DNA of 64,000 nucleotides from NCBI GenBank assembly GCA_017303935.1, contig JAFLBD010000003.1, forward strand, positions 372,001 to 436,000. The letters are read 5' to 3'. The notes under the pieces were generated by a model. It was not told the DNA's origin, searched no databases, and saw only the letters and a program-made list of their open reading frames with translations. Of this stretch, positions 9,853-58,775 are shown piece after piece; position 1 is the first letter of the stretch, and every line of letters starts with the position of its first letter. This stretch comes from Armatimonadota bacterium (GTDB taxonomy: Bacteria > Armatimonadota > Fimbriimonadia > Fimbriimonadales > Fimbriimonadaceae). Position numbers and translations under genes: made by a program.

Positions 9853-10302
9853 ATGAAGAAATTTTCACTTGGTTGTTTTGCGATTGCTGCGCTTGCTGTG
9901 GTGGGATGCCAAAAGTCCGACCCGATCGTGGGTAAATGGGTTCTGGACGGCAAATCCGCCAATCCGATGATCACCGCTCAGTCGATGACCTTCAACGCGG
10001 ACGGTACGTTCAGCACGAGCTCGACGATCGGCGGCACAGACAATCGATCGATGACCAGCAATGACAAGGGAAAATGGTCATGGGATGCTGACAAGAAGCT
10101 GAAGTTGAATTACGAGGACATCGTGTTCGAATTCAAGGGATTGGACGAAAAGACCAAATCCATGATCGAAACCCAGATGAAATCTGGTAAAGCCGCAATC
10201 ATCAAAGAGATGAACGGCAAGGGCCCGTTGGAAGTCAAATTCGAAGGCGAAGGGATGTCGATCATCGATCCATCCGGCACGATGAAGTTCAAGCGCGGCT
10301 AA
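9853..10302 (+). CDS. Lipocalin-like lipoprotein (149 aa)
   Basis: The signal peptide ends in the lipobox VVGC (Cys at about 19), so the product is a lipid-anchored envelope protein. The mature part begins SDPIVGKWVLDG and continues with MTFNADGTFS and GKWSWDADKKLKLNY. This alternation of GxW and FxxDGTF is typical of small lipocalin-like beta-barrel lipoproteins. The ligand is unknown. The start at 9853 follows the acylase stop by 25 nt and is set by the signal peptide. A strong terminator follows. Confidence 0.8.
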   Translation: MKKFSLGCFAIAALAVVGCQKSDPIVGKWVLDGKSANPMITAQSMTFNADGTFSTSSTIGGTDNRSMTSNDKGKWSWDADKKLKLNYEDIVFEFKGLDEKTKSMIETQMKSGKAAIIKEMNGKGPLEVKFEGEGMSIIDPSGTMKFKRG

Positions 10303-10322
10303 ACTCGGCTCGGTTCAGATTG

Positions 10323-10362
10323 AATGTGGCAGGTGGATTTCCACTTGCCACATTTTCGTTTT
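10323..10362 (+). terminator. Intrinsic terminator
   Basis: 15-bp stem (AATGTGGCAGGTGGA with TCCACTTGCCACATT, one G-T pair), 2-nt loop, then TTCGTTTTC. Ends the acylase/lipoprotein unit. Confidence 0.87.
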
Positions 10363-10484
10363 CTTTGTTCTGCCACGATTCCGGCTGCGCTGACGCTGGA
10401 TTTTGATCTGTACTTCCCTTCCCGCCTCTCCGGTCATTTGGTTTTAGCGGGTTTTGTCGCGCGGGGTAAACTCTATCTTCGCGT

Positions 10485-10561
10485 GCTCCCGTCGTCTAGC
10501 GGTTCAGGACATCGCCCTCTCACGGCGAAGATCGCGGGTTCGAATCCCGTCGGGAGTACCA
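10485..10561 (+). tRNA. tRNA-Glu (CTC)
   Basis: Acceptor GCTCCCG pairs with CGGGAGT (first pair G-U). The anticodon stem TCGCC/GGCGA encloses loop CTCTCAC with anticodon CTC, and the T-arm GGGTTCGAATCCC is intact. The gene encodes CCA. It stands at the left border of the accessory region. Its T-arm sequence recurs in inverted orientation at 10617-10630. Confidence 0.95.
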
Positions 10562-10570
10562 GCACGCTCT

Positions 10571-10630
10571 AGGTTCAAAACGCGATTTTCCGTAGGTTCA
10601 AAATTGGAACAAACCTGACGGGATTCGAAC
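10571..10630 (+). repeat. att-like repeat R1 (about 60 bp)
   Basis: Starts AGGTTCAAAACG and ends GACGGGATTCGAAC. It is about 80% identical in sequence and order to 19279-19332 (R2). The last 14 nt are the reverse complement of the tRNA-Glu T-arm at 10538-10551. On the minus strand it reads as a tRNA T-arm followed by an acceptor-like stretch and a TTCCA end. Confidence 0.65.
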
Positions 10631-10665
10631 TTCGGCGTCCCCGCTGACTCGGATCCTCAGTCCGG
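10606..10665 (-). pseudogene. tRNA-Leu(GAG)-like 3' half remnant
   Basis: The minus strand carries CGGACTGAGGATCCG, a 4-bp stem with a 7-nt loop containing anticodon GAG after T33. A variable-arm-length segment and GTTCGAATCCCGTC follow, in tRNA-Leu order and spacing. The 5' half is missing and the T-stem 5' side no longer pairs, so it is not a functional tRNA. The stop codon of the cupredoxin gene falls in the anticodon loop. Likely an attachment-site scar. Confidence 0.5.
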
Positions 10666-11037
10666 AGACGACTGTTTCACCACTACTTTCCCCCGGTACA
10701 TGTTCATGGGGCACGCGAATGCGATTTCGCCAGTCTTTGCCGGAGTGAACTTAAAGGTAACAGACTGGCCCTGTTTGACGGATTGCTTCATCTTCAAGCT
10801 CTTGAACTCAATGGTTGAGCCGCAGCCGATCTTTGCGCCACCTTTGAAGGTGATGGCGACGGGCACACCCTTTTTGACGGAGATCACAGAAGGGGAGTAT
10901 TTGCCGTTTGCGACCATGACGGTCACGGATTGAACACCTTTGACCGTCTTCGCAGAAACGGTCGCCGCGTCATGTTGAAACGCGAGGGCGGGGCTCATCA
11001 AAGCGGCAACGGCGAGGAGAGATGTACTGTTTTTCAT
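10657..11037 (-). CDS. Exported cupredoxin-like copper protein
   Basis: A 126-residue protein with a signal peptide (LLAVAALMSPALAFQ), then a beta-sandwich of cupredoxin type. Likely ligands are the Cys of KIGCGSTIEF, and the Cys and Met residues of FACPMNMYRG near the C-terminus. It probably binds Cu(I) or Ag(I) in the periplasm and hands it to the pump. It is closely related to the C-terminal domain of the adaptor encoded at 14480-16837 (same ACPM.M.IG/YRG ending). It overlaps the RND pump gene by 4 bp (ATGA) and is the last gene of the operon. Confidence 0.85.
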   Translation of the reverse strand: MKNSTSLLAVAALMSPALAFQHDAATVSAKTVKGVQSVTVMVANGKYSPSVISVKKGVPVAITFKGGAKIGCGSTIEFKSLKMKQSVKQGQSVTFKFTPAKTGEIAFACPMNMYRGKVVVKQSSPD

Positions 11038-14000
11038 GGGTTTTCTTCCTTACGAGGTTCGTGGTCCTGAGGGACGGAGGAATGGAGCGGGTCATGCTCG
11101 GTAACGGGCCAAGACCACTCCCGGTTGAGGAAGGTCCTGTTCACCCAGACGACAAAGTCGTCCACATAAGTGTGCATGATCGGGATGTCGAAGAGGGACA
11201 GAATCGTGCCAACGATAAGCCCGCCGATGACCGCTGTCGCCAGGGGCTGATAGGCGTCCAGTCCAGTTTTCGGCGCGAGGGCGACAGGGAGCATGACAAG
11301 AAGCGTGATGCCTGCCGTCATCAGAATCGGGCGAAGCCGGTCGGGGCACGCAGTCCGAATTGCCTCATCCCGTGGAACACCTTGGTCGCGGTATTTCATG
11401 ATCAGGTCGATCAGGAGGACCGCGGTTGTGATGTCCATGCCAGTCAGAACGATGATCCCGAGAATTGACACCGTTGAGAACGACTGATGGGCGATGAAGA
11501 GCGCGACGAAGACACCCGCCAGCTCAAGAGGGAGCGAGGCAATCATCTGCAGCGGTTGCAGGAACCCTCTGAACTGAACCACCAGGACGAGATACATCAT
11601 TGCGATGGAGAGCCCCAGCCCCTGTATCAGGCGTCGGAAACTATCCATCATCTGGGTCATGTCGCCGCGCATTTCCATGCCGTAGCCTGGAGGAAAGTTG
11701 ACAGGCTCGATCCCGAGCTTCTTGTTTCCCCCATAGGCATTTGCGACGAGGTTCATCACCACGTCCATGCTCGGAAGACTCCCGATTCGGTAGTAACCCG
11801 TAACGCCAATGACCCGCCGCAGGCCATCGTGCTCGATGACCGTCGGAGCCACCTTGGGGACGATCTCCGCGACGGACTTCAGCGGGATTTGCCTGCCGTC
11901 TGAAGTCGAAATATAGATCGACTCCAAATCCTGCTGGGTGGCGCTTGTAGCCTTATCGTAGCGGACAAGGATGGTGTCTTGACGGATGTTCGGCAAGCGG
12001 TAGTACTCGCTCGTCAAGCCGCCCCGCATCGCATAGTAAGCTTGCTGGGCGATCTGGTCGGGACTGAGACCCACCTCCTGTGCCTTTTGAAGATTCACCT
12101 CGATACGGTAATCGGGAACCCCCATGGCCCAGGTGCGCGAGGGCTGAAACAGTTCGGGCATTTTCTCGGCTACTGCTTGAACCTGAGTGCCCAGCTTATC
12201 CAGAACCGCCATGTCTTGACCGTAGATGTTCACATGGATTGGTGCCGCGGAAGTAGCCATCACGTCGGACCCCATTTCCTTGATCTGGAACCTGCGAACC
12301 CCTGGAACGGTCTGAAGCGTTTCCTTTTGGATCGCGTCAATGACTTTGAAGATGTCGTTCTTGCGCCGGTCCTTGTCGCTGAACGTGAGCATAAACGCGG
12401 CTCCGTTCACAGCGGGCATCTGATAGCCCGTGAAGAACGGCGACCACGTTTCGAACATGGACTCGGCCCCAAGCTCAATGCTTGCTTTCTCCACTTCAGG
12501 ATGCTTCCTGATAATGTCCTCGATCTGCTTTACCGCTCGCTCCGTACCCGCATAGGATGTCCCCGGGTTCATTTCCAGAAACCCTGAAGCTTGTCCCGTA
12601 TCTGCGAGCGGCATCATTTCAGAGCCGAGGAAGTAATAGAAGGTGAAGCCGAGGATGAGAGTCGCAAGGACGCGGGTGAAGTTGGCGAACCGATGTTCAA
12701 GCAGCCACGAAATCAGCCTTCCGTACCCCTTTTCCATTCGGACAAGCCCACGTTGGAACGGATCGACCAACCGGTAGAGCAGGCCCAGAACAGGATGTTT
12801 ACGCTCCTCGTCTCGGACATCCTCGGGCCGAAGTAACTTGGCGCAGAGCAGTGCGGTCAACGTAAATGAAACCAACATCGAGGCGAGCAAACCGAAGATG
12901 AGCGGCCACACGAGCTCCACAAACATGAGTCCCACGATGCCTCCCGAGAAGATCAAGGGAAGGAGGGCGAGGACGATCATCAAAGTCGAGGCGATGACGG
13001 CGAGTCGCACCTCAGCGATGCCGTCGATGGTTGCTTGCTTGGGCGTTTTGCCCATACGAAGGTGTCGCTCAACGGCGTGGATGTCGATGATCGAATCATC
13101 GACCAGTCGGCCAATGCTCAAGAGAAGCCCAATGAGGGTTCCGCTATTGAACGTCATGCCAAACGGGACCATGAACAGCACGGCAATAGCCAGCGAGGTC
13201 GGAAGGGTGACCATGGCGATAAGTGTCCCGCGCCACTCGCCCAGGAAGAGGACGAGAGCGATTGCGGTCAGCATGATGGCAACAGCGAGCTCATGCCAGA
13301 CGTTCTCGAACAAGATATCGACGAAGTGGGCGTTGTCATAGGCCGTCTCAAACTTCAGGCCGGGGTTTTCCGATTCGAGCTGTTTGACCACTCGCATGAT
13401 GGCGGGGACAACTTGTGCGGAACTGGCTCCGGGGTTCTGAATAACGCTGACTTCGATGGCGTCCTTAGACTCACCGGTCGTGTTATCCAAATACCTGTAT
13501 CCAGACCGCTTCTCCCAGTGGGAGTCTTCCACCCTGGCAACGTCGCGCACATAAATGACCTTGGGGGTGTTCGGTGCTGGAGCCGCTCGGGGGGCTGGTG
13601 CGCTGCCGGAATCGGCCCCGCCCCCCATAGCCATCCCGCCTCCAGCTGGGGTTGCGGCCCTCGGCTGAATCCCGACGGTCGAGATCGGGTAATCCAGCAC
13701 ATCTTGGGCGCTTGCCGCGCGGGTATCGACGCGCACGATGCCCTCGCGCTCGCCGCTGGTGACCGTGCCCCCAGAGGCACTGACATTGGCCCGATCGATG
13801 GCGTTGCGTACGTCCAGGATGGAAAGTCCGTAAGAAGCCAGCTTATCTCTGTCCACCACGACCTGGAGCTGTCGCCGGTATCCACCGAAGGGCACGACCG
13901 CATAGACGTCCTGGACGGTCTTGAGGCGTTGAACCACCGTGTTGTCGGCGTACTCTCGGACTTTCGCCATGTCCCAACCCAGCGTGGGATCGCCCCTCGC

Positions 14001-14483
14001 AGAAAGGGTCAGCACGGGCAGATTGAGCGGGTCTATGGGAATGACCCACGATGGCTTGAGGTTCGCGCCCGTAGACGGTAAGGTGGACTGCACGACATTC
14101 ATGAGTGCCTGAATGTCGGTCTGAGCCCTCTGCATATCCGTGCCATAAGGAAACTCCAGCGAGACAATGCTAAAGCCGTCCTGGGAGGTCGATCTAATGT
14201 AGTGCACACCCTTGACGTTGATGAGCTGCTCCTCAATGGGTTTTGAGATGTAAAGCTCCATCTCCTGCGCCGAGAGACCAGGCATCATGGTGACGACACC
14301 GACCATGGGGCTCTCTACGTAAGGCGCAAAGCGGCGCGGCATGTTCGAGATGGCGAGCCACGCAAGAGCCAGCACGGCCACATAGAACGCGATCACCGCA
14401 TAGGCATGCTCGATGGACCACTTATGGATCAGGTGGAGGGCATTGGGTTTGTGACCGTTCTCGGTGGAGTCCGACTTGCTCAC
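11034..14483 (-). CDS. RND-family efflux pump inner-membrane protein
   Basis: A 1149-residue proton-driven RND transporter forming a tripartite pump with the two genes upstream. The first membrane segment is at about 30-50, followed by a large periplasmic loop, then a cluster of segments with GRLVDDSIIDIHAVERH on TM4 carrying the proton-relay aspartates. The whole pattern repeats in the second half (GMDITTAVLLIDLIMKY). A Gly/Ala/Pro-rich insert sits at about 280-310. The start is the GTG overlapping the adaptor stop (GTGA, 4 bp). An ATG 39 nt upstream would intrude into the adaptor and is less likely. It is not a textbook heavy-metal type, as TM4 lacks the usual DAAVVMIEN. Metal export is inferred from the cupredoxins. 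Confidence 0.93.
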   Translation of the reverse strand: MSKSDSTENGHKPNALHLIHKWSIEHAYAVIAFYVAVLALAWLAISNMPRRFAPYVESPMVGVVTMMPGLSAQEMELYISKPIEEQLINVKGVHYIRSTSQDGFSIVSLEFPYGTDMQRAQTDIQALMNVVQSTLPSTGANLKPSWVIPIDPLNLPVLTLSARGDPTLGWDMAKVREYADNTVVQRLKTVQDVYAVVPFGGYRRQLQVVVDRDKLASYGLSILDVRNAIDRANVSASGGTVTSGEREGIVRVDTRAASAQDVLDYPISTVGIQPRAATPAGGGMAMGGGADSGSAPAPRAAPAPNTPKVIYVRDVARVEDSHWEKRSGYRYLDNTTGESKDAIEVSVIQNPGASSAQVVPAIMRVVKQLESENPGLKFETAYDNAHFVDILFENVWHELAVAIMLTAIALVLFLGEWRGTLIAMVTLPTSLAIAVLFMVPFGMTFNSGTLIGLLLSIGRLVDDSIIDIHAVERHLRMGKTPKQATIDGIAEVRLAVIASTLMIVLALLPLIFSGGIVGLMFVELVWPLIFGLLASMLVSFTLTALLCAKLLRPEDVRDEERKHPVLGLLYRLVDPFQRGLVRMEKGYGRLISWLLEHRFANFTRVLATLILGFTFYYFLGSEMMPLADTGQASGFLEMNPGTSYAGTERAVKQIEDIIRKHPEVEKASIELGAESMFETWSPFFTGYQMPAVNGAAFMLTFSDKDRRKNDIFKVIDAIQKETLQTVPGVRRFQIKEMGSDVMATSAAPIHVNIYGQDMAVLDKLGTQVQAVAEKMPELFQPSRTWAMGVPDYRIEVNLQKAQEVGLSPDQIAQQAYYAMRGGLTSEYYRLPNIRQDTILVRYDKATSATQQDLESIYISTSDGRQIPLKSVAEIVPKVAPTVIEHDGLRRVIGVTGYYRIGSLPSMDVVMNLVANAYGGNKKLGIEPVNFPPGYGMEMRGDMTQMMDSFRRLIQGLGLSIAMMYLVLVVQFRGFLQPLQMIASLPLELAGVFVALFIAHQSFSTVSILGIIVLTGMDITTAVLLIDLIMKYRDQGVPRDEAIRTACPDRLRPILMTAGITLLVMLPVALAPKTGLDAYQPLATAVIGGLIVGTILSLFDIPIMHTYVDDFVVWVNRTFLNREWSWPVTEHDPLHSSVPQDHEPRKEENP

Positions 14484-16837
14484 TTGACCACCGCCTGACC
14501 TATGAACATGTCCATCGGGCACGCAAACTTGATCTTTGTCCCGGCCTTCTGGGCAGGAATGTCGACCGTCACGGGCTTGTTCAGCACGGTCTCGGCTCTG
14601 AGTCCCAATTCGGGAAACTCCACGATGTCAGCGCACGTTTCTGCAACTCGACGCACAAAGACGAGTTTGGTCGGCCTACCTGCTGGAAGCTGCACTGTTT
14701 CGGGCGAGTAACCAGCTTCAGTGATCTCAATAGTCACCATGTCGTCGCTAGTCTTCACAGGCTCACTTGAGACTTGGACTTGCATGCCTTCCGTTAATCC
14801 AAACGGTGCCACGACGATCCGCTCTCCCTGCTTGAGCCCGGTTTTGACCGCGGCCTTGCCATGCGCCCATCCAAGGATTTCGACTTGCCGCAAAGTGGCG
14901 GAGAGTTTGCCGGGCGAGTCTGCCGCAACAACCCAAACCTTGCTCACCGTCTGACCGTTATGGGACTCGGTCACAACGGCGTCAGCAGGAATGACCAGGG
15001 CCGATGCAATCGAACCGACCGAAATTTCCAGGGAGACGAATTGCCCAGGACTAAACTGACGATTCTCGTTCGAGTAGACAGCTTCAACAACCCCCATTCG
15101 AGAGGACGGGTCCACCGATGGGGACACGCTGGTCACACTCATTACCAGGACTTGATCGTCCTGGCCGGCCCCACGCACCTGAACTTGGTCGCCAACCTTA
15201 ATCCTGGCAAGGTCTTGTTGGGAAACGTTTGCTTGAATGCGCACCGGTGAAACTTGTGCGACCTTCAGCACCGCCTGACCCGGAGCTACCACGACGCCCG
15301 GAGCGACCAACCGTTGGGTGACCACGCCATCGACATCTGCTCTCAGCTCAGAATAGCCTCTTTGCGTCGCCATGCCCCTCAGACTTGCGCTTGCCTCGGA
15401 GACAGCAGCCCGCGACTGACCGATTTTGGCTCGCGCGGATTGGACGCCCGATTGTGCGGTCTTGACCTGCGCAAGCTTGGCCCTATGGTTTGCTTCAGCC
15501 TTGGAAACCCGCGCATTGGCGGCAGAGACGTCCGCTTCGGCCCGGGTCAGTTCACTCTTTGCCCCGGATGCCATGGAACTTGCCTTGGAAAGCCTCTCCT
15601 TGGCCGAGGCGAATGCCGAGGCCGCCCTTTGGGACGCCGCGACGGCCTGTTGCCATTCATCTTTAGAAATGGCTCCTTTAGCATGGAGCAGGCGCATTCG
15701 TTCAAGTTCTTGGCTCTGATAGGTTTGGTCCGCGGTTGCCGCATCCAGCTCCGCGTGTGCGCCCCTCATTTCTGCGTTTGCGGCATCGACTGCCGCCGAC
15801 GATGAACTCCTGGACGCCCTCGCCGCGTCAAGCATTGAGCGTGCTTCGGAGACTTCCGTCTCCGCCATTGTGGCTTCAGCCCTCGACTGCTCCACCATAT
15901 TCAGTGCTTGCTGAAACTCAGCGTCCGCCACGCCGACCCCCTGGCTCGCGTTGTTCACTCCCGCCGCCTTTTCGGCGATCATCGGGTCGATCTGGCTCGT
16001 GTCGAGCCTGGCCAGAAGCTGACCCCGTTTCACCATGTCGCCGACGTACACGGGCATGGCCACGATTTTTCCGCCAACCCTTGGGACAACGTCCTGCTCG
16101 ACGAAACCTGAAACCTGGCCAGAATAGGTGACCGTCGCTGCAAAGGGCTCGGACTTTACCTCAGCGACCGCAACTGGCAGGGCTCCTTCCGGTGCGGGAG
16201 TGTTCATTTCCATCACCTGGGCCTCAAGTGGCGTCATCGCTCCTTCTCGGCGGAGATTTCGAACCGCCCACATGCCTCCGGCAAGGGCAAGCGCAAGCAA
16301 CGCGAGCGACATCCAAACGGACTTGCTCATAAGGCCGTGCATACTGAGTTTCTGCCCGGTCTTCCGCATCCGCCAGATGACCAGGGCAACAGCGGTGCCC
16401 ACCGCAAGAACAATCAGCCACGTTGAGCCGGAACCCGACGCACTGTCAGAAGACTGGCCCGTAGCAAGTTGAAAGATTGCCTGACCGCTCCCGGACGCGG
16501 CACTAATAGAGACCGTGACGTCGTACTGTCCAGCCATCGAGAAGACTGCCGGTACGCTGTAAGTGCCCGGTTCAGAACCGGCTGATGCAACTTCCTCTCG
16601 TTCGCCCATATTCATGCCAGGCATCTTGGCGAGGACCTTGATGGTAGCACCTGAAACTGGTTTTCCCTGCGAATCGGAAACCTTGAGACCGACTTTTGCC
16701 TTCCCTACGGGAACGATCAGGGGATCGGTGGTCAGCGAAATGCGGAACGGTCCTGCCATTCCCTCAAGAGCGAAACCCAAAGTCGCGAGGACAAGGAGCA
16801 GCATGACGATCAGCGTTCTCAGACTTTTGGTTTTCAT
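14480..16837 (-). CDS. Four-part periplasmic adaptor: YtkA/FixH-like domain, membrane helices, MFP core, cupredoxin
   Basis: A 785-residue adaptor linking the RND pump to the TolC-like channel. Order: signal/anchor (1-28); a YtkA/FixH-like beta domain (about 30-125) containing the Met-rich LAKMPGMNMGE; a Gly/Ser linker; two membrane helices (about 137-157 and 172-192); the biotinyl-lipoyl half-motif VVPRVGGKIVAMPVYVGD; a very long Ala/Ser-rich coiled-coil hairpin (about 290-470); the second lipoyl half and beta-barrel; and a C-terminal cupredoxin (about 700-785) ending ACPMDMFIGQ. Ordinary adaptors are about 400 residues. It overlaps both neighbours by 4 bp. Confidence 0.92.
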   Translation of the reverse strand: MKTKSLRTLIVMLLLVLATLGFALEGMAGPFRISLTTDPLIVPVGKAKVGLKVSDSQGKPVSGATIKVLAKMPGMNMGEREEVASAGSEPGTYSVPAVFSMAGQYDVTVSISAASGSGQAIFQLATGQSSDSASGSGSTWLIVLAVGTAVALVIWRMRKTGQKLSMHGLMSKSVWMSLALLALALAGGMWAVRNLRREGAMTPLEAQVMEMNTPAPEGALPVAVAEVKSEPFAATVTYSGQVSGFVEQDVVPRVGGKIVAMPVYVGDMVKRGQLLARLDTSQIDPMIAEKAAGVNNASQGVGVADAEFQQALNMVEQSRAEATMAETEVSEARSMLDAARASRSSSSAAVDAANAEMRGAHAELDAATADQTYQSQELERMRLLHAKGAISKDEWQQAVAASQRAASAFASAKERLSKASSMASGAKSELTRAEADVSAANARVSKAEANHRAKLAQVKTAQSGVQSARAKIGQSRAAVSEASASLRGMATQRGYSELRADVDGVVTQRLVAPGVVVAPGQAVLKVAQVSPVRIQANVSQQDLARIKVGDQVQVRGAGQDDQVLVMSVTSVSPSVDPSSRMGVVEAVYSNENRQFSPGQFVSLEISVGSIASALVIPADAVVTESHNGQTVSKVWVVAADSPGKLSATLRQVEILGWAHGKAAVKTGLKQGERIVVAPFGLTEGMQVQVSSEPVKTSDDMVTIEITEAGYSPETVQLPAGRPTKLVFVRRVAETCADIVEFPELGLRAETVLNKPVTVDIPAQKAGTKIKFACPMDMFIGQAVVK

Positions 16838-18111
16838 ATGTCTCCTCCCGTGGAGCGCGAAAGTCGGGCTAGGGCTGTCAGCACATCAAGCCGAGCTTTC
16901 GCCACGTCGGTTCGAGCCTGCGTAAGCAGCGACAGCCCGTCCAATTGCTCCAAAAGGATCGCCTTGCCCGCGTCCACTCGGAGTGCGATGATCTCATACG
17001 CGCTGGAGGCAGCTTCTGCGGCCGCTACCGCGGAACTAAGGTTTGCGGCTGCGGTTTCGTAGTCGAGCAGTGATTGTCTCACTTCCTTTTCGACCTGAAG
17101 TTTGGTAGCCGCGAGTTCGGCCTCGGCCTTGGCTCTCATCGACTTTGCTTGATCGATCCCGGAACGGATACGCCCCCCGTCGAAGAGTGGAACACTCACG
17201 GATAGCCCAAAGGTCACTCCGCCCATATCTCGGCGGTTCGTTGCGTCCGCCATGCCAGTCGCGTAGAGTCTTGGCTTGGCCAGCGCTTTTGCGGCCCGTA
17301 GTTCAGCCTCGGAAGCCTTGCTCCGGGCTGAAGCAGCTGCGACTGCGCCGCGGCTCGCCATAGCCGCGCTCACCAGATCCCCCACCGATAGGGTCTTCGT
17401 CTCGGGTTCCGAGACATTGTCGAGGTCGATCTCGGCGTCGAGCTTGCCCCCCATGAGTTGTAAGAGCTCAAGGTACGCCTTCTTTTCGGCGTTCGACGCG
17501 GTCTTAAGGTCACGCTCTGCACGCCTCATCTCGGCCTGCACGCGCAGGACCGACGCTTCGATCGTCTTGCCAGCTTCAAACCTGGCCTTTGTCGTATTCA
17601 GCATTTCGGCAAGCGCGTCGTAGTTAGCTTGTGCGGCGACAACTTCCTCGTGCATCGCTCTCACTTCAAAGTAGGCTTGACGAACAGAGGCTACCAACTC
17701 AGCCTCGGCTTCTTGGTAGTCCCCAGCTGCCGCCCGAGACTGCCACTTGGCCGAAGCGGCCATGGCTCTCACATCGTCTGCGAGAATGGGCAGCATCAGC
17801 ATGAGATTCACATCGCTGAACTGACCGGGAGGCACAAGCATCGATACCGCTGGCTCGGACTTTGGCACGGAGCCAAGGATGGATGTGTTGTTCCCTGTCG
17901 AAGCGAAGCCATTGATGGAGACTTGGGGACCGCCCATTGCTTTCGCCCCCCTTTCATTCGCTTGCGCTCCCAAAAATTCAGCCCGCGCACTCTTCAGGAC
18001 AGGACTGTTCGCTTTCGCGAACGATAGGGCGTCCTGAAGGTTCATCCTCCCGGATTGACCCATTGCGCCACTCGCCGAGAGGGCGAACACCAACAAACAC
18101 ATCGTTTTCAT
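16834..18111 (-). CDS. TolC-family outer membrane efflux protein
   Basis: A 425-residue outer membrane channel of the tripartite pump. It has a signal peptide (CLLVFALSASGAMGQ), then two copies of the family repeat, each starting with a helix like MNLQDALSFAKANSPVLKSARAE, followed by long Ala/Glu/Lys-rich helices and a short strand (GGVTFGLSVSVPLFDGG) characteristic of the beta-barrel part. It ends LARLSRSTGGDI. It overlaps the adaptor start by 4 bp (ATGA) and its own start overlaps the preceding gene by 4 bp. Confidence 0.91.
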   Translation of the reverse strand: MKTMCLLVFALSASGAMGQSGRMNLQDALSFAKANSPVLKSARAEFLGAQANERGAKAMGGPQVSINGFASTGNNTSILGSVPKSEPAVSMLVPPGQFSDVNLMLMLPILADDVRAMAASAKWQSRAAAGDYQEAEAELVASVRQAYFEVRAMHEEVVAAQANYDALAEMLNTTKARFEAGKTIEASVLRVQAEMRRAERDLKTASNAEKKAYLELLQLMGGKLDAEIDLDNVSEPETKTLSVGDLVSAAMASRGAVAAASARSKASEAELRAAKALAKPRLYATGMADATNRRDMGGVTFGLSVSVPLFDGGRIRSGIDQAKSMRAKAEAELAATKLQVEKEVRQSLLDYETAAANLSSAVAAAEAASSAYEIIALRVDAGKAILLEQLDGLSLLTQARTDVAKARLDVLTALARLSRSTGGDI

Positions 18112-18581
18112 CGCACCACCTTCTTCGCCTGTTCAGCGTCAAGGACTCTTAGAGCTCTGCCCCATGCGGCCTCCCGGGCAGCTTCGTATTGCCGAGACAG
18201 GTCTGAATACGAGCCAAGTTGTTCTTGAACTTGGTCGAGCCTGCCTTGGCGCGGCTGATAGCCACCCATTGCCTCCGTGAGTCCTGCTTTCACTATCTCC
18301 CAATCGCGGCTCAGAACGACCAACTTCTCCCGCTGATTCGCGCTGAGGGACAAGTTTGGCTGCCTCAGCAGGTCACCGGGAACCGGTTTGTGGAGCGGTT
18401 TTGTCGGCGACGGAAGATGGGACACTTTTTTCTTCTGCGCTGGAGTTGTCCAGGAACTGTAGCCGACAACAGCCAATGCTCCAAGAATCGAGACGATTGT
18501 GCCTGGCCCGAACAGCCTGGCTTTGCTATGGCATCCGCACCGAGCTGAGCCGCAGCTGCCTTTATGTTTGATTGAGAAAAT
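18108..18581 (-). CDS. CpxP/Spy-like metal-resistance protein, unusual start
   Basis: The C-terminal half has the LSANQREKLVVL motif (family LTxxQ) and helices ending LDAEQAKKVV, typical of periplasmic Spy/CpxP or metal_resist proteins. The start is a problem. TTG at 18476 would cut a hydrophobic helix (GTIVSILGALAVVGYSSW). The frame stays open upstream with no ATG or GTG. An ATT at 18581 preceded at 8 nt by GAGGTAAG gives a 157-residue protein with a Cys-rich head, KGSCGSARCGCHSK, before the helix. I chose ATT on spacing, so read the first 35 residues as tentative. It is first of the five 4-bp-coupled genes. Confidence 0.68.
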   Translation of the reverse strand: MFSIKHKGSCGSARCGCHSKARLFGPGTIVSILGALAVVGYSSWTTPAQKKKVSHLPSPTKPLHKPVPGDLLRQPNLSLSANQREKLVVLSRDWEIVKAGLTEAMGGYQPRQGRLDQVQEQLGSYSDLSRQYEAAREAAWGRALRVLDAEQAKKVVR

Positions 18582-18643
18582 GGTTCTTACCTCGCAATGT
18601 CGATCAGGGTCGCACGAAAGGACGCGCGACGTAATGTCGAAAC

Positions 18644-19081
18644 CTAGCGAGGGGGAGGCGCACGAAGGCCGTTAGCCCCAATATCGGGTGGGCGAATCCG
18701 TGGGACGACTAGATACGTTGGTCGTCGCGGCAAGACCTTGGAGCCCGCCGATGGCACGGTCACGCCATTTGGCAACGCGGCGACTGGAGCGTCAGTGACA
18801 GTCAGGGCCGAACATTTGTCGGTCTCGGGAGTTTGGGCCGCAGAGACCTGGCAATTAGACGCCTTCGAGGTCACCGTGTCCGAGTTCTTGTCCGAAGAGG
18901 TCTTCTCGCCTTGACAGCACGTGCAGTTCTTCTCCCCCGTGACCGGGCACGTTGCTGCGGATTCGACGCTTTTCGATGTTGGCGTATTCGGTCGTTCGGG
19001 GCAGAGGCACACAACCGAGCCGAAGCTCATCTGGGAGATGAACACCATGGTCGCCAACAGGATATGAGCGAAGAGCCTCAT
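18644..19081 (-). CDS. Exported Cys-rich protein heading the efflux operon
   Basis: About 145 residues: signal peptide MRLFAHILLATMVFISQMSFG, then VVCLCPE, a TCPVTGEKNCTCCQGEKTSS cluster and a later NCQV and DKCS. Seven to eight cysteines in a small exported protein suggest periplasmic metal binding. The C-terminus is Pro/Arg-rich and has no family I recognise. A GTG 18 nt upstream is in frame, but the signal peptide begins at the ATG. It lies about 60 nt before the CpxP-like gene and just after a 41-bp tandem repeat that may hold the operon control region. Confidence 0.6.
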   Translation of the reverse strand: MRLFAHILLATMVFISQMSFGSVVCLCPERPNTPTSKSVESAATCPVTGEKNCTCCQGEKTSSDKNSDTVTSKASNCQVSAAQTPETDKCSALTVTDAPVAALPNGVTVPSAGSKVLPRRPTYLVVPRIRPPDIGANGLRAPPPR

Positions 19082-19103
19082 GCTTACCGATTCGCGCACG
19101 GAT

Positions 19104-19196
19104 ATGATGCGCCTATACAGATTATGACGTAAACACCAGGTCAGATGATGCGCCTATACAGATTATGACGTAAACACCAGGTCAGATGATGCACGC
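19104..19196 (+). repeat. 41-bp tandem repeat, 2.2 copies
   Basis: Two exact copies at 19104-19144 and 19145-19185, then 8-12 nt of a third. It lies immediately upstream of the Cys-rich gene that starts the efflux operon. Each unit contains CATAATCTGTATAGG when read toward the operon, so a duplicated operator or promoter is possible. Confidence 0.88.
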
Positions 19197-19240
19197 CCGC
19201 GACTGAGGGTGTCATTGTGGCCCCGTGACGCGCCTGCGGC

Positions 19241-19355
19241 AGTTCTAAGCGCGTCCACTTCGGTGTACCACCACCCGTCAGGTTCAAAACGGGATTTCTT
19301 GTAAAGTTCAAATTTGGCACCAACCAGACGGGATTCGTTACTCTTAGGTTCAAAG
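19241..19355 (+). repeat. att-like repeat R2 (composite arm)
   Basis: The first 30 nt (19241-19270) match 21963-21992 at 29 of 30 positions and contain an imperfect GTCCAC-TTCG-GTGTAC hairpin. The middle (19279-19338) matches R1 near tRNA-Glu. The end TAGGTTCAAA matches R3. The arm therefore shares parts with both other copies, as a junction between two accreted elements would. The 280 nt that follow up to 19633 hold nothing else I can support. Confidence 0.72.
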
Positions 19356-19633
19356 GCAAGCTGAACTAGTCTGCTAAGGTCTTTGTGGATGGCGATGATC
19401 CGAGCCCACTTGCTCAGGAGATTAATGGGCAGCTGAGAGTCAGGACAAGGTGATGGAAGGCGAGACCGCCTATGGTCGGCGGGTGGTTTGTGCTCGGTGT
19501 AACCGGCTTCTGGATCGCCAGACTGGAACGAATCTCCTGAGTCGCCCTGGCATAGTCGCCGCGGCTCTTAATCGTCCACTTGCTGAGTTGAGATACTACA
19601 GTTCAAACGAGGCTGTTTTACCTGCCCTAGTTC

Positions 19634-20581
19634 CTATCCAAAAAGACTCGCCTGCGGTAGTACGGCGCGAGTGTCACGCTCAATCGCGCTCACAAGTGTT
19701 TCCTGGAGTCGATGTGGCTTAATGATCCCGATGTTTGCCTGCTCCGCGATTAGCTGCCGTGCAAGATCATACTTCGGATTGTGCAGATCAGCGTCTTCGT
19801 CATAAATGACTGCTCTCGGTATTGAATACTTGCGCGCGGCTGCCATAGCATGGCGTGATCCGCTGTCTAAGCCGAGATCGTTCTTGGCGTAACTCGCTGC
19901 CAGAATGACAGCATCACTATACAAGGCCTGTAACCGATCTCTCTCGACATAGCGGCTACTTTGCTCGTTCCGCGACGTCGCTTCTTCGTAATATTCCGTG
20001 ATCAACAATCCACCATTCTCGACTATCTCTTCTGCGAGCGGAGCATTCGAGCGAGGCAAGATGCGGTCTATTGTGCCCGGAAGGATCGCGATTGTCTTTC
20101 CACCTGAATCGAGTGCTTGACGGTGCGCAACCGAATCGCAGCCTTGCGCCAATCCGCTCACGACTGTAATTCCAAGCGCTACCAGGGCCTTCACTACCTG
20201 TCTCTCCGCCGCAACCGTACTGTCGTCTGGATCGAGCAGGCCTACTGCGGCAACACTCTTATTGTGGTGTCCCAGCAGGGAAATGTCGCCTTTGTACACA
20301 AGGAAGGCTGGCCTTTCCGCTCCTCTCACATCTCCTCTTGGTAGTGGGAAGTCTTCGTCGCCAAGTGCCACAACGCCATCAGCAACGCTGGACCCTTCTA
20401 GGATTGATGCGACATCGGCTCTGGCAAGTGCCAGATCATCCTCGGAAAACTTACCCGCTGCTACGCTCAGGATAGGGTGGACGCCTTTCGTTCCGCTCAG
20501 CTTCTCTGCGACCCATGAGCGACCGATCCCACGAAGCCTGAGGACTGCCATTACATTGAGAGCGTTTTCTGTGTACTTCAT
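19634..20581 (-). CDS. DprA/Smf-like DNA-processing protein
   Basis: A 315-residue protein with a helix-hairpin-helix-like N-terminus (VLRLRGIGRSWVAEKL), then the DprA Rossmann fold: KSVAAVGLLDPDDST strand, GLAQGCDSVAHRQALDSGG, TIAILPGTIDRILPRSN, GGLLITEYYE and SGSRHAMAAARKYSIP. DprA binds single-stranded DNA and loads RecA in transformation. This short divergent copy lacks a recognisable C-terminal winged helix and may have another role. It is the last gene of a three-gene minus-strand cassette between att-like repeats R2 and R3. The first arginine-binding GxR position of standard DprA is altered to GLL. Confidence 0.88.
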   Translation of the reverse strand: MKYTENALNVMAVLRLRGIGRSWVAEKLSGTKGVHPILSVAAGKFSEDDLALARADVASILEGSSVADGVVALGDEDFPLPRGDVRGAERPAFLVYKGDISLLGHHNKSVAAVGLLDPDDSTVAAERQVVKALVALGITVVSGLAQGCDSVAHRQALDSGGKTIAILPGTIDRILPRSNAPLAEEIVENGGLLITEYYEEATSRNEQSSRYVERDRLQALYSDAVILAASYAKNDLGLDSGSRHAMAAARKYSIPRAVIYDEDADLHNPKYDLARQLIAEQANIGIIKPHRLQETLVSAIERDTRAVLPQASLFG

Positions 20582-20592
20582 GCTTCTTCCTT

Positions 20593-21210
20593 TTAACGCG
20601 TAACAGTCTTTCCTACCGCGTAAAATACCACTTGTGAGGCCCCAGCGTCTAACAACGCCTGGATTGCATCCTCGTCGATACAGACGCCTGGGGTATAGAT
20701 GTCATCGACCAAGACGATCCGCTTCTCAGCGATGTCGGGACTGAGGTGACAGGTCGCCTTTGTAATCCCGACGTATGGCGTGTGTCCGGATCCGCCGTAC
20801 CCGCTCTGATTCAAATGGGTTGTCACGGTGTCCGTATGTCTGGTTATCCAAAGTGTTCCATCAACAAACCCTACCCTCCGGACCGCCGACTGCACAGCTG
20901 CCCGGAAGTACTGTTGTTCGGGACGGTACATTCTCTCCGACTTTGCACGCGGCACGACGCATACTGCCCAGGTGTCAGGATGTTCAAAGAGGCCGAAGAA
21001 TGCGTCCAGGGCAGCTTCTAAGCTCTTTATGGCCCTCGAAAGATCATTGTCGTTTCTATTCCCAAAATCGTTCTTTAGCACATTGAGGTAGTCGGGATTG
21101 CCGGGATTGCCCATACGGACGTAGTCCACATGGTAATACCCTTTAATATCACGACTGACGAAGTTATTCCTACGAATCTCAAACTCTTTCAAAAGATCAC
21201 TCTCACGCAT
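20593..21210 (-). CDS. ComF-like phosphoribosyltransferase
   Basis: A 205-residue type I phosphoribosyltransferase. The PRPP-binding loop is clear in RIVLVDDIYTPGVCIDED (about 165-182), followed by the usual helix ALLDAGASQVVFYAVGKT. CVVPRAKSERMYRPEQQ gives the upstream strand and a ComF-like basic segment. ComF proteins act with DprA in DNA uptake, so pairing with the DprA-like gene 11 nt downstream is meaningful. The substrate base is unknown. It overlaps the HAD gene by 22 nt, indicating one transcript. Confidence 0.88.
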   Translation of the reverse strand: MRESDLLKEFEIRRNNFVSRDIKGYYHVDYVRMGNPGNPDYLNVLKNDFGNRNDNDLSRAIKSLEAALDAFFGLFEHPDTWAVCVVPRAKSERMYRPEQQYFRAAVQSAVRRVGFVDGTLWITRHTDTVTTHLNQSGYGGSGHTPYVGITKATCHLSPDIAEKRIVLVDDIYTPGVCIDEDAIQALLDAGASQVVFYAVGKTVTR

Positions 21211-21800
21211 CGACTTGGATGGATCCCTAGTTGCCTCGCGCTTCTGAGTTGGGCAAGATCATCCTCGAAAAGAACCACAGATCCAAAGTCAACGGCTCCT
21301 TCATCACGCAAGTCCAGGTATTTATTCCGGAGTATATCTTGATGCCCCGGTGGAGATGAGACAACACCGCCAAAAACTTCACTCAAATTGAAGTGTCCGA
21401 CCACGCTAGCCACACGTCCGGGTAGCCCTTGTGAGACGAGAGTGACGTTTGAGGGGGAATACTGGCCGCAGAACTCCAGTAAGCAGTGGTTCAGTTCGAG
21501 CAAGGGCAAGTACTCATCATACAGCGTCTCCTTGAGGCGCACAACCTCGACAACGTCACGATCCGTGAGGTTGGGCAGCAACGACCGGAGATTTGCGCGG
21601 GTGACACGAATAGTTGATTCGCGAAAATTACTCGCTAAACCTTTGACTCGATTTACTGCGTCAAAATAAGCACAGTTGTTCGCGGCTGTTGATTGTACGA
21701 GTGTTCCATCCAAATCACACAGGCACTTTGTAGCATCCCTGGGGATGTTAACCAGGTTTATTGGGCCGCCATCAAGAAGTTCGTACGAAGCCTGTCGCAT
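21189..21800 (-). CDS. HAD-superfamily hydrolase
   Basis: A 203-residue phosphatase of the haloacid dehalogenase superfamily. Motif I is CLCDLDGTLVQS (nucleophile and acid Asp), motif II is VTLVSQGLPG (Ser), and motif IV is VVLFEDDLAQL. A helical cap lies between I and II (about 45-110). It is the first gene of the cassette, overlapping the phosphoribosyltransferase by 22 nt. It may remove phosphate from a nucleotide or sugar phosphate handled by the partner enzyme, which is inference from gene order. Confidence 0.88.
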   Translation of the reverse strand: MRQASYELLDGGPINLVNIPRDATKCLCDLDGTLVQSTAANNCAYFDAVNRVKGLASNFRESTIRVTRANLRSLLPNLTDRDVVEVVRLKETLYDEYLPLLELNHCLLEFCGQYSPSNVTLVSQGLPGRVASVVGHFNLSEVFGGVVSSPPGHQDILRNKYLDLRDEGAVDFGSVVLFEDDLAQLRSARQLGIHPSRCVRVIF

Positions 21801-21962
21801 GGGTGCGTAGCGGACGGGAAGAAATCCTTAATGGTACGTATGGATAGCCGTCTGGCGAAGATTCTACCCTGGTGTCACGGTCGACAAGGCTCGCATTTTC
21901 GGAGTGTGTATAAATGAAGTGCTACCTAGTGGTGAATCCTGCTCAATGCCAACTGTCAGAAA

Positions 21963-22052
21963 AGTTCTAAGCGCGTACACTTCGGTGTACCAGCTCATTT
22001 TGAACCTGTTTGAACCGGTGTAGCCGAACGGGATTCGAACTCCTAGGTTCAA
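21963..22052 (+). repeat. att-like repeat R3
   Basis: The first 30 nt match 19241-19270 with one change and form a perfect hairpin GTACAC-TTCG-GTGTAC. The end has AACGGGATTCGAAC, the reverse complement of a tRNA T-arm, followed by TAGGTTCAAA as in R2. It bounds the DprA cassette on the right. The rest of 21801-22171 shows nothing else I can support. Confidence 0.72.
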
Positions 22053-22171
22053 ACCAGTGCTGACCGTAACTAATAGTCGGTAGCGTGAGCAAAGGGCCCG
22101 TACTGGAGTTTTGCGGCTTCGTGAGGGTCAGTTCTTTCGCGAACGAACAATCAATTAACAAACTTTCGGTG

Positions 22172-23275
22172 CTAGGTCACTGTGATTACGCGAAGGCGCT
22201 TGTCGATAGCCAGATACTCTAGCGACACAGTTAGCTTCACGTTCTCTTTCGTGTCAGGAGCCTCGATGTCCAATAGGATATTGAACTTGACGGTATTGTG
22301 CTCCTCAAGATAGGTCAGATTGTAAATGTAGTTGCTTTGTATGCGAGCTGCAATCATTTCTTCAATCAATTCTCTGGGGAAGCGCGCCAATCCTGCTTTC
22401 TTGAGCAGGCCGCTCTTCTTGGTGATGAGATAATCGTATTTCGCCGGTTCTAAATGGACATCGAAGAGCTTCAAATCCATTGGCATCGGACTTACGGCGT
22501 TTAGCGAGTGCGTCGTGTCCGATTCAAACCCTTTGAAGACCTCCCGCTCGATCTTATAGGAGAGTAGGGGGCCATAGAACATGGACTGGATACTCACCAA
22601 CGAATATCCGTTTTCCTCGAATGGGTAACCGGGCATGTTCACGTTCTCACCTATCGGATATTCCTCTTCGCCATGGTCAACGACTATGTGTCGCTTTGCC
22701 TTTATAAACGCGTTGCACAGTATCATGGACAAATAAGTCTTCATAATCGAGGGAACAGTGAGATCCATTGATCCCACATAGGGCTCGAAATCATCCAGTT
22801 CGGACCTGAAGTGAATAAACATCTCGTCGGAAAGGTTGTTTATGTAGACGAGAAAAAACTGGCTGCTATGCTTCCAGTCACAGTGGGCCCGCAGTTCGAC
22901 GTGCTTCTCGAAAAGCTTGAAGAGCATATCCTGCAGGTGATTGTCGCCGATGTAGTCCCCGGCGAGTACGCTATGTGTGCTCCGCCTGTCGAAGCAAGGA
23001 ATCAACCGCTCGAAGATTGGGTAGCCATACCACGAACTCTCCAACTTGGTCGAATCGAACACAAATACTGCTTCCCTCTTGCCGGGTTGCGGAATTAGTG
23101 CTTTCTTAAGTGACTCGTAGGGGACTCCCTTCGCAATGAGTGTCTCCTTAAGCTTTTTCACCAGCCAGTTGATCTCGCGATTCATCTGCTCATCTGTGAT
23201 GCGACCGTCACTCCGCAAAACATCGAACATGATGTTATCGCGACCATCCAGGGTAAAGATCGTTTGATCCGCCAT
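22172..23275 (-). CDS. Uncharacterised protein (367 aa)
   Basis: Not recognised. The protein is soluble, mixed alpha/beta, with no signal peptide or membrane helix. It starts MADQTIFTLDGRDNIMFDVL and contains charged stretches such as HIVVDHGEEEYPIGEN. An in-frame ATG at 23443 exists, but the added 56 residues look like translated spacer. It lies just outside repeat R3 and reads in the same direction as the DprA cassette, so it may be a separate cargo gene of the same accessory region. Low similarity to anything I know argues for lineage-specific or mobile origin. Confidence 0.68.
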   Translation of the reverse strand: MADQTIFTLDGRDNIMFDVLRSDGRITDEQMNREINWLVKKLKETLIAKGVPYESLKKALIPQPGKREAVFVFDSTKLESSWYGYPIFERLIPCFDRRSTHSVLAGDYIGDNHLQDMLFKLFEKHVELRAHCDWKHSSQFFLVYINNLSDEMFIHFRSELDDFEPYVGSMDLTVPSIMKTYLSMILCNAFIKAKRHIVVDHGEEEYPIGENVNMPGYPFEENGYSLVSIQSMFYGPLLSYKIEREVFKGFESDTTHSLNAVSPMPMDLKLFDVHLEPAKYDYLITKKSGLLKKAGLARFPRELIEEMIAARIQSNYIYNLTYLEEHNTVKFNILLDIEAPDTKENVKLTVSLEYLAIDKRLRVITVT

Positions 23276-23456
23276 GTCGCCAGATTTTGAACTAACGCCG
23301 CGCATAAACGCGAAGTCGCTCTGATGCTTGAGAATGGCTGGGCACCTTTGAGAACGAAATACTGAGTCTAGGGGATACTCGCACCAATGTGGAAGATGTA
23401 CTGGTGCAACCCTGATGCTCGCAGAAACAGGTCCTACGAGCATCAGGATCGAACGA

Positions 23457-28759: not shown

Positions 28760-28904
28760 GAGAACCTGTTTTCTTGCACCCGAAAGACCTAATCATGTCC
28801 TTGCGCTTTCGCTCGGATTCAATTCGATGCACTGGTCGGGCGCACTCTCCCAGCAGAGATTCAGAAAGCATCGGTCGTTGAACGAGAAGCAAATTCTCAT
28901 TAAT

Positions 28905-28932
28905 TCATCAGCATATATCTAAATATCTCGAT
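28905..28932 (+). promoter_or_regulatory. Likely ArsR operator/promoter
   Basis: AT-rich block with repeated ATATCT units (CATATATCTAAATATCTCG) directly abutting the arsR ATG. It resembles autoregulatory ArsR sites, and a -10 inside it (TAAATA or TATCTC) would make the transcript leaderless or nearly so. Confidence 0.45.
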
Positions 28933-29334
28933 ATGTCGTGGTATACTTCGATTGTGGACTCACCCATCCAAATGTTCAAAGCCCTCGGTGACCCGACTCG
29001 GGCACGCATCTTTGAGTTTCTTTGCTCGAAGTGCAATCCGATCGCCCTTGATGAAAGCGGCGATGTTCGCCCGATTCAAGGAGTGACCGTGGGAGAAGTC
29101 TGTTGCCACGTCACGGGTAACGAGCAATTTAGCTCGACAGTCTCCTTTCACATCAAAGAGCTCCGCCTGGCTGGATTAATCCATGCCGAGAAAAGCGGGA
29201 AATTTATGGTGTGTTCTCTCAGAAAAGAGGCCATTGACGTGATGCGCGGGTATCTCGACAGCCAATCAGAAGCATGCACCGTTGCGTGCTCAGCCACCAG
29301 TCCACAAATTTCAACCAAGGAAGAAACCAAATGA
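28933..29334 (+). CDS. arsR: ArsR-family arsenic-responsive repressor
   Basis: A 133-residue winged-helix metalloregulator. It starts with the family segment MFKALGDPTRARIFEFLCS. The recognition helix lies in FSSTVSFHIKELRLAGLI and the wing in EKSGKFMVCSL. Cysteines in GEVCCHVTG near the metal site and a C-terminal ACTVACS pair are candidate arsenite ligands. It represses its own operon until As(III) binds. It overlaps arsD by 4 bp (ATGA). Confidence 0.92.
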   Translation: MSWYTSIVDSPIQMFKALGDPTRARIFEFLCSKCNPIALDESGDVRPIQGVTVGEVCCHVTGNEQFSSTVSFHIKELRLAGLIHAEKSGKFMVCSLRKEAIDVMRGYLDSQSEACTVACSATSPQISTKEETK

Positions 29335-29717
29335 AAGCTATTCAAATCTATGACCCTGCCATGTGCTGTTCCACTGGAGTTTGCGGACCAAGCGTCGACT
29401 CCAAACTTGTCAAGTTAGCCGCCGATGTTGCGTATCTGAAGAGCCAAGGTGTCACGGTCGAGCGATACAACCTCGCCCATCAGCCAGAAGCCTTCACAGC
29501 GAACCCACTGGTTCTTGCGGAAATGGGCGCCGAGGCAGAGAATCTTCCTCTCTTCATTGTCGAAGGACAAGTGATGGCAAAAGCGACCTATCCGAGCCGT
29601 TCAGAACTCTCACATTGGCTGAACATTGAGGCAAATGCGACCTCAGAGAAGACTAGTGTCGAGTTGCCCATGGCGTCTACCAAGTGCTGTGAATCTGAAG
29701 GTGAAAGGTGTTGCTGA
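29331..29717 (+). CDS. arsD: ArsD arsenic metallochaperone
   Basis: A 128-residue chaperone that passes As(III) or Sb(III) to the ArsA ATPase. It begins MKAIQIYDPAMCCSTGVCGP, with the three functional cysteines (CC....C) in the family positions. The thioredoxin-like fold is followed by NLPLFIVEGQVMAKATYPSR and a C-terminal KCCESEGERCC, the extra vicinal cysteine pairs found in many ArsD proteins. The start is fixed by the conserved N-terminus. The arsA start follows the stop by 1 nt. Confidence 0.93.
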   Translation: MKAIQIYDPAMCCSTGVCGPSVDSKLVKLAADVAYLKSQGVTVERYNLAHQPEAFTANPLVLAEMGAEAENLPLFIVEGQVMAKATYPSRSELSHWLNIEANATSEKTSVELPMASTKCCESEGERCC

Positions 29718-29718
29718 A

Positions 29719-31473
29719 ATGTGGGCCAACAACCTCAAATCGCGATACCTCTTCTTTACCGGCAAGGGAGGTGTCGGCAAGACTTCTCTCGCCTGTGCCA
29801 CGGCTTTAAGTCTGGCTCAATCCGGCAAGAAGACTCTCATCGTCAGCACTGATCCAGCAAGTAACCTTGACGAAGTGTTCGGCGTGCGCTTGGGTTCTGA
29901 GCCAACTCCGATTCCCGGAATTGAGGGACTGTTTGGCGCAAACCTAGACCCCGAGGCTGCTGCTGCCGCATATCGCGAGAAGGTCGTCGGTCCTTTCCGG
30001 GGCAAGTTGCCTGAAGCGGTCATCCGAAACATGGAGGAGCAATTCTCCGGAGCATGCACCACCGAGATCGCAGCCTTTGACGAATTCGTCCGGCTGATGG
30101 CAGACCAGGAAGCCACCGAATCATTCGACCACCTCGTCTTTGATACGGCTCCCACTGGGCACACCCTCCGACTTCTCAGTCTCCCCAATGCCTGGAGCGG
30201 ATATCTGAACACGACGACCGCCGAAGCGAGTTGCCTCGGCCCGCTCGCTGGGTTGAAAGATCAAAAGGAGCTTTACCGACAAGCGTTTGAACATTTGGCA
30301 GATGGCGATCTAACCACCGTGGTGTTGGTAGCTCGGCCAGAACGGGCTAGTTTGAAAGAAGCCGCCCGGACTCAGGGGGAACTGAGCGAACTCGGAATTA
30401 CCAATCTGTCTCTCTTAGTAAACGCGGTGTATCGAATCGACTCCACCGAAGATCCGATCGCCCAGCAGTATGCCGCCGTCGTGGAAGATGGACTGTCCTC
30501 AATGCCAACCAGCCTGAAGTCGATTCCTAGCACCGAGATTCCTCTCCTTTCGGGCAACGTTGTTGGAATCGAGGCACTTAGAGCGCTTTTGTCGGGGTCC
30601 CGCGAGGTTCCTACTTCTTCTCGATCACTCATTCCGCCACAGAGCAAGCTTTTATTCGAGCAGTTTGTCCGCGAACTTGAGCAGACTGGCAAGGGAGTCG
30701 TGATGACTATGGGCAAGGGCGGAGTCGGCAAGACACGAGTGGCCACTCGAATCGCTCAAGCGCTCGCAAGCCACGGACACTCCGTACTGCTCACCACCAC
30801 TGACCCAGCCGGAAACGTGATGGATGTTGCAACCGATTCACATGGAGATCTAATTGTTGAGCGAATCGACCCCGCGGCAGAGGTTGCCAAGTACACCGAA
30901 TCAGCACTTCAAAAGGCATCTCAAATGATGGATGACGACGCTCTGGCTCTTCTCAAAGAGGATCTACGCTCACCATGTACAGAAGAGATCGCAGTATTCA
31001 GAGCCTTTGCGGATGCGGTCGCTAAAGGCACTGACCGATTCGTCGTCATCGATACCGCACCGACTGGTCACACGATTCTGCTCATGGATGCGACCGAGTC
31101 GTATCATCGCGAAGTCGCCAGAACCCAAAGCGACGCACCCGAATCGGTCCGCGAACTCCTCCCTCGACTTCGCGACCCTGAATTCACGAAGGTTGTGCTC
31201 GTTGCCCTCCCAGAGCCAACTCCAGTCCATGAAGCCCAGCGATTGGAAGCGGATTTGCGACGGGCTGGCATAGAACCGTTTGGCTGGATCATCAACCGAT
31301 CGTTCATTGCCACAGGAGTTTCTGAGCCTATGCTTGCGGGAAAGGCGGCTCAGGAAGTTGGCCCTATCCAGGAAGTTCTGGATTCCGCGATTCGCGTCGT
31401 CATCGAACCCTGGACCTCGCCGCTCGAAAAGGCAGACCGACCACAGTCAGTCGCTCAGGACGTACTGGTATGA
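29719..31473 (+). CDS. arsA: ArsA arsenite-stimulated ATPase
   Basis: A 584-residue ATPase with two homologous halves joined by a linker. Each half has a P-loop GKGGVGKT (about residues 15 and 330) and the signature DTAPTGHT. Cysteines in GACTTE, ASCLG and SPCTEE match the three arsenite-binding cysteines of the family. It normally energises an ArsB or Acr3 permease, but none is encoded in this operon. It overlaps the phosphoesterase gene by 4 bp. Confidence 0.95.
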   Translation: MWANNLKSRYLFFTGKGGVGKTSLACATALSLAQSGKKTLIVSTDPASNLDEVFGVRLGSEPTPIPGIEGLFGANLDPEAAAAAYREKVVGPFRGKLPEAVIRNMEEQFSGACTTEIAAFDEFVRLMADQEATESFDHLVFDTAPTGHTLRLLSLPNAWSGYLNTTTAEASCLGPLAGLKDQKELYRQAFEHLADGDLTTVVLVARPERASLKEAARTQGELSELGITNLSLLVNAVYRIDSTEDPIAQQYAAVVEDGLSSMPTSLKSIPSTEIPLLSGNVVGIEALRALLSGSREVPTSSRSLIPPQSKLLFEQFVRELEQTGKGVVMTMGKGGVGKTRVATRIAQALASHGHSVLLTTTDPAGNVMDVATDSHGDLIVERIDPAAEVAKYTESALQKASQMMDDDALALLKEDLRSPCTEEIAVFRAFADAVAKGTDRFVVIDTAPTGHTILLMDATESYHREVARTQSDAPESVRELLPRLRDPEFTKVVLVALPEPTPVHEAQRLEADLRRAGIEPFGWIINRSFIATGVSEPMLAGKAAQEVGPIQEVLDSAIRVVIEPWTSPLEKADRPQSVAQDVLV

Positions 31474-32219: not shown

Positions 32220-32240
32220 GCACTTGGAGTGACCGGATTA

Positions 32241-58735: not shown

Positions 58736-58740
58736 TGCTG

Positions 58741-58746
58741 ACTATA
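58741..58746 (-). promoter_or_regulatory. -10 box TATAGT, leaderless start
   Basis: TATAGT ends 5 nt before the ATG at 58735, the shortest gap of the set, and no ribosome site is possible. Confidence 0.6.
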
Positions 58747-58775
58747 GCACGGTAAATCGCGGATTTAAGTTCATT

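Follow-up and report, generated by a model that had tools for sequence, protein, structure and literature searches.

Several described systems, each sharing features with the locus reported here, combine a DprA-like protein with a second enzyme. The closest is ShosTA (ShosA and ShosT in PADLOC; PDB entries 8zvb-8zvd and 9vzo), a toxin-antitoxin system of mobile DNA and patchy distribution, in which a DprA-like antitoxin lies directly behind a phosphoribosyltransferase (PRTase) toxin and the toxin contains both HAD and PRTase parts. Protection against the phages T7 and lambda has been described for a pair of DprA and PRTase genes in a P2-like prophage hotspot (PMC9122126). As a review summarizes the work (PMC12593503, citing Pu et al. 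2025), ShosT comprises a phosphoribosyl transferase and a pyrophosphatase and disturbs purine pools, ShosA is a DNA-binding antitoxin, and the T7 protein Gp0.7 is the trigger of ShosTA. In PsyrTA and RqlHI, a DprA-like antitoxin is paired with a RecQ-like helicase toxin, and the PRTase and DprA folds also meet in ComF and DprA of natural transformation. At a larger scale, tRNA-targeting islands, tycheposons, and P2/P4 defence hotspots gather their units behind a tRNA 3′ end or at another hotspot, with defence and adaptation cargo between border repeats; the features of tycheposons used in this comparison are general knowledge.

We analysed a 64,000-nucleotide stretch of an Armatimonadota genome (contig JAFLBD010000003.1, positions 372,001 to 436,000), referred to below as the window. 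Our data make it likely that a three-gene cassette in the window is a ShosTA-type anti-phage toxin-antitoxin system, with ShosT split into separate HAD and PRTase genes, and that this cassette is one unit of an integration hotspot at a tRNA-Glu(CTC) gene. The open reading frames lie on the minus strand in the order HAD, PRTase, DprA-like, tightly packed between two direct repeats, R2 and R3, just as the initial annotation had described them. The HAD phosphatase gene (203 aa; 21189-21800) comes first and overlaps the PRTase gene (205 aa; 20593-21210) by 22 nt; a gap of 11 nt separates the latter from the DprA-like gene (315 aa; 19634-20581), the presumed antitoxin gene shosA, so that the trio forms one tight operon. 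Scanning the cassette for promoters and terminators gave a chance-level result only. Directly behind R3 lies a 423-aa gene (22172-23443) without a convincing Pfam or PADLOC match.

The DprA-like product matched the Pfam family DNA_processg_A (1.6e-34) and the PADLOC profile ShosA (1e-47). The PADLOC profile PsyrA also matched it (9.7e-17), but unlike PsyrTA and RqlHI the cassette is without a RecQ-like helicase. Its top matches among PDB sequences were 8zva (named DprA, from the ShosTA series) and 9vzo (ShosA). Judged by these sequence matches, the gene is a predicted ShosA.

For the PRTase, the Pfam match was weak (0.0075, below the cut-off), the VDDIYT motif was conserved, and PADLOC assigned the protein to ShosT at 3.2e-7. 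A Foldseek search of its AlphaFold model (pLDDT 80) against the PDB placed the ShosT entries 8zvc, 8zvd, and 8zvb at ranks 1-3 (best E 2.1e-5), with ComF behind them (E 2.3e-3). A structural aligner gave Z 13.2 for ComF of Helicobacter pylori and Z 12.4 for ShosT, a tie, which means that the fold alone cannot choose between the two. The PRTase profile matched one fused ShosT with 68.6% probability over 43 columns; searches of the PRTase against phage records and of its profile against PDB sequences returned no match. The likeness to ShosT in sequence thus appears modest (3e-7), and the HMM, the Foldseek rank, and the gene context place the protein nearer to ShosT than to ComF, whereas the structural aligner ties both. 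Together, the PADLOC assignment, the Foldseek rank, and the adjoining gene indicate a ShosT-type PRTase toxin next to the predicted antitoxin.

The HAD protein likewise had a weak Pfam match (0.25, below the cut-off), and fold searches with its AlphaFold model (pLDDT 86.9) revealed a class IA phosphatase fold. The PRTase and HAD folds are therefore backed by AlphaFold models and fold searches despite the weak Pfam matches. The DxD motif of the HAD protein is intact, and its profile matched the N-terminal part of fused ShosT (E 3e-7); against the PDB, the model retrieved generic class IA HADs, with no ShosT among the matches listed. In the Pf phage PfAC02a, ShosT is annotated as a single HAD-PRTase protein followed by DprA, and a Psychrobacter plasmid shares this arrangement; Pfam confirmed both domains in these two proteins, and their HAD motif is intact. 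ShosT of P2-like phages is also a HAD-PRTase fusion, but its HAD part is without the motif, in contrast to the cassette, and the Salmonella phage SopEPhi has a PRTase-only form. Profile comparison ties the HAD and PRTase of the window to the two parts of fused ShosT. Because the two are one fused protein before DprA elsewhere and the profiles link them to its parts, we conclude that the window holds a split ShosT. Both toxin parts of ShosTA are present, though as two genes, and this separation, together with the modest sequence identity, distinguishes the cassette from the published system. On an IMG/VR contig (L105, 3390-7104), a HAD domain ends a longer protein, which is followed in turn by the PRTase and a tyrosine recombinase; that stretch yielded no DprA.

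By analogy with published ShosTA, the PRTase would act with PRPP, in agreement with the ribosyl-phosphate chemistry envisaged in the initial annotation, and the phosphatase step would be supplied by the separate HAD. The two enzymes together may disturb the purine nucleotide pool and cause DNA damage. A DNA-binding ShosA would hold the toxin in check until some event of the phage attack (in the published case, a T7 protein) upsets this balance, whereupon the infection would be halted. The split arrangement of HAD, PRTase, and DprA allows the two enzyme steps attributed to ShosT to be separated genetically.

Searching other genomes for the three-gene order, as the initial annotation had suggested, recovered the trio in several other phyla: in Synechocystis, Caldilineales, Sulfurimonas, a gammaproteobacterium, Veillonella, and Fusibacter. 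The Synechocystis trio lies on plasmid pSYLB near an Abi gene, and in Veillonella and Fusibacter the HAD sits behind DprA. Related DprA-PRTase pairs are carried by phages, and HAD remnants persist in an Acidobacteria locus (cut by the contig end) and in an Accumulibacter locus. Among 60 relatives, close homologues of the PRTase-DprA pair occurred only in G048, whose contig ends at the PRTase; the HAD was found in none. The coordinates of the G048 matches agree with those on contig RFHN01000090.1, so that G048 appears to be Armatimonadetes isolate J051, which falls in the same order as the window. This patchy distribution bears out the earlier description of a mobile-looking unit, and the cassette adds Armatimonadota to the known range of ShosTA. 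The empty site in related strains that had been proposed as a check was not found for exactly this unit; variation was seen at the level of the hotspot only.

The initial annotation had seen in these genes divergent forms of ComF and DprA and had proposed an undescribed defence or DNA-uptake module. As a competence module, a divergent DprA and ComF would handle incoming single-stranded DNA, aided by the phosphatase. The DprA fold is indeed real and the PRTase model aligns to ComF of H. pylori, but the HMM and Foldseek results favour ShosA and ShosT, and the HAD partner is known from ShosT fusions; we know of no HAD partner of ComF. Conserved chromosomal genes shared by relatives would mark a competence locus, whereas the pair is missing from 59 of the 60 relatives, the trio occurs on a plasmid, and related pairs occur on phages. 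A pair present in a single relative is not the fixed competence locus that the initial annotation had set against its own proposal, and the cassette differs from ComF/DprA of transformation as a variable, unit-borne operon with a HAD gene. We therefore regard an uptake module as very improbable; defence is the most likely role, and nothing points to transformation. A defence system of its own kind, apart from ShosTA, is somewhat less implausible but still unlikely. Here, the separate HAD would turn the product into something else, such as a dephosphorylated signal, with DprA serving as sensor instead of antitoxin. Such a system would account for a separate HAD with an intact DxD next to P2-type ShosT proteins without the motif, and for a split trio kept across phyla with the HAD in variable position. 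Yet the intact-motif fusions of PfAC02a and Psychrobacter agree with the cassette in domain order and in their DprA partner, and the review that cites Pu et al. assigns both activities to ShosT (PMC12593503). The module is not undescribed, since it matches the known ShosTA system, in split form.

The repeats R2 (19241-19270, plus strand) and R3 (21963-21992, plus strand) are 30-nt, attachment-site-like sequences that agree at 29 of 30 positions. They are the sole two copies in the 2.56-Mb genome, no further convincing copy was found right of 22 kb in the window, and shuffled windows gave 0 matches to the pair. Of the 113 genomes of the order, 19 had the same sequence, R, and 18 of these belong to the window's family; a reversed control pattern had no match, and viral contigs gave 0 matches to the R pattern. 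Each repeat is followed by a right arm on the plus strand. In the arm of R2 (19271-19340), GGTTCAAA-like boxes are accompanied by the tRNA T-arm core in inverted orientation (19327-19340), and the arm of R3 (21993-22040) carries the inverted core at 22027-22040; aligned over 77 nt, R3 and its arm share 82% identity with a copy of R and its arm in G072. Overall, the inverted core was found at about +33 or +55, positions that differ by about two helical turns, behind 19 of 23 sites, often with GGTTCAAA boxes, at a chance rate of 0.001 per site; the other 4 sites are without it. We rejected R as a strictly conserved hairpin, since a C in about half of the copies breaks the stem, and as an intrinsic terminator, given its weak fold (-6.5) and the missing T run. 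Rfam detected only the tRNA within 10000-23000. Just before R2, at 19104-19185, a 41-nt sequence is perfectly duplicated in tandem.

The framing of the cassette by R2 and R3 proved correct, and the two sites are members of a wider set whose first site is the 3′ end of tRNA-Glu; this set is found again in other genera. In the window, the tRNA-Glu(CTC) gene (10485-10561, plus strand) is the probable insertion target. In the attL-like arm to its right (10562-10630, plus strand), GGTTCAAA boxes lie at +10 and +33, and the inverted T-arm core spans 10617-10630; a unit with RND metal-type efflux genes (10632-19240; Pfam ACR_tran and OEP) fills the space up to R2. Elsewhere, R lies mostly 1-15 kb downstream of a tRNA-Glu gene, usually CTC, on the same strand (most cases with the tRNA on the same stretch). 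The distal R of G010 and of G005 is directly followed by a strong hairpin beginning with the CCA, and the empty tRNA-Glu of G087 itself runs into a similar hairpin, indicating that R stands at the former place of the tRNA end. Some distal R copies therefore look like attachment-site remnants, and the layouts of G010 and G087 present filled and empty border sites at a tRNA 3′ end, as in tRNA-targeting elements. Against this scheme, a terminator takes the place of the element's arm behind the tRNA of G029. The efflux unit, which comes immediately after the tRNA in the window, is found behind an R copy in the congener G001; this fits units moving as blocks. Several relatives have a gene matching window 58842-59267 within about 1.5-5 kb of the tRNA or the last R, whereas in the window it lies 48 kb from the tRNA, suggesting that most of the 10.6-58.8 kb region was probably accreted. 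The far-side gene order is also rearranged, with the genes at 56573-59267, which are close flanks of the hotspot in relatives, swapped relative to G004.

The hexamer GTACCA, common to the tRNA and R, is the probable crossover. Insertion would proceed by site-specific recombination within this sequence, which the tRNA 3′ end has in common with the element; it would leave the tRNA whole and place a copy of R, attR-like, at the far border. Neither PF00589 nor a local profile matched a tyrosine recombinase in any array checked. The earlier description of a unit without a recombinase holds in this sense for tyrosine recombinases, and a recombinase for the units may act in trans or have been lost. 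The hotspot thus differs from tRNA-targeting islands, tycheposons, and P2/P4 hotspots, which it otherwise resembles, in that no array checked has its own tyrosine integrase, R has its own conserved sequence and does not copy the tRNA exactly, and the right arm is fixed. As far as tyrosine recombinases are concerned, it is an unusual and apparently recombinase-less hotspot. One might instead read R2 and R3 as integron-type sites and the hotspot as a cassette array, given its small units, its conserved and in part hairpin-forming sites, and the lack of a recombinase within the array. The arrays, however, have tRNA-Glu at their start in place of intI and attI, none of them has a tyrosine recombinase match nearby, the units are multi-gene and reach about 10 kb, and the hairpin stem is broken by the C in about half of the R copies; a true integron is the least probable of the readings considered. 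A tentative reading, which we would put forward as conceivable though not as the probable one, is a family-wide Armatimonadota cassette platform that has no recombinase of its own. Small defence or metal-resistance units would accumulate behind tRNA-Glu and depend for their movement on a recombinase gene located elsewhere, making the platform an analogue of integrons that acts in trans and trades immune systems. Such a platform would use a private attachment site made up of the R core, the GTACCA crossover, the GGTTCAAA boxes, and the inverted T-arm core at about +33 or +55. The R sites raise a clear question, namely which recombinase moves the units.

Genes of known defence systems recur in the R-associated units of other genomes, and this neighbourhood speaks for the ShosTA unit acting in defence. 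We found a SPARTA-like TIR/pAgo in G029, PDC-M19A/B in G005 (G067 was assigned by close similarity of its ORFs), ThsB in G019, two ThsB-type TIR proteins in G101, and SIR2 in G075; metal or efflux genes were also among the cargo. R can hence serve as a simple 30-nt probe for defence cassettes in a poorly studied phylum, one that finds SPARTA-like, ThsB-type TIR, SIR2, and uncharacterised units. The SPARTA-like pair of G029, a TIR-APAZ and a short pAgo, occupies 13412-16332 of stretch L058, in an R-associated stretch behind tRNA-Glu, and is adjoined by an exact tRNA-Glu 3′ fragment at 13132. Some R-bounded units carry a large single-gene cargo (L065, 6877-8940; L064, 10831-14559; L034, 5815-7719) with no convincing Pfam or PADLOC match, and these are possible undescribed defence genes. 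In the window, ArsR/ArsA-type arsenic genes at 28904-32220, with no R in front of them here, are 78% identical in DNA to a G072 unit behind an R copy. Farther right, a reverse transcriptase with a weak match to group II intron maturases is encoded at 39169-40467.
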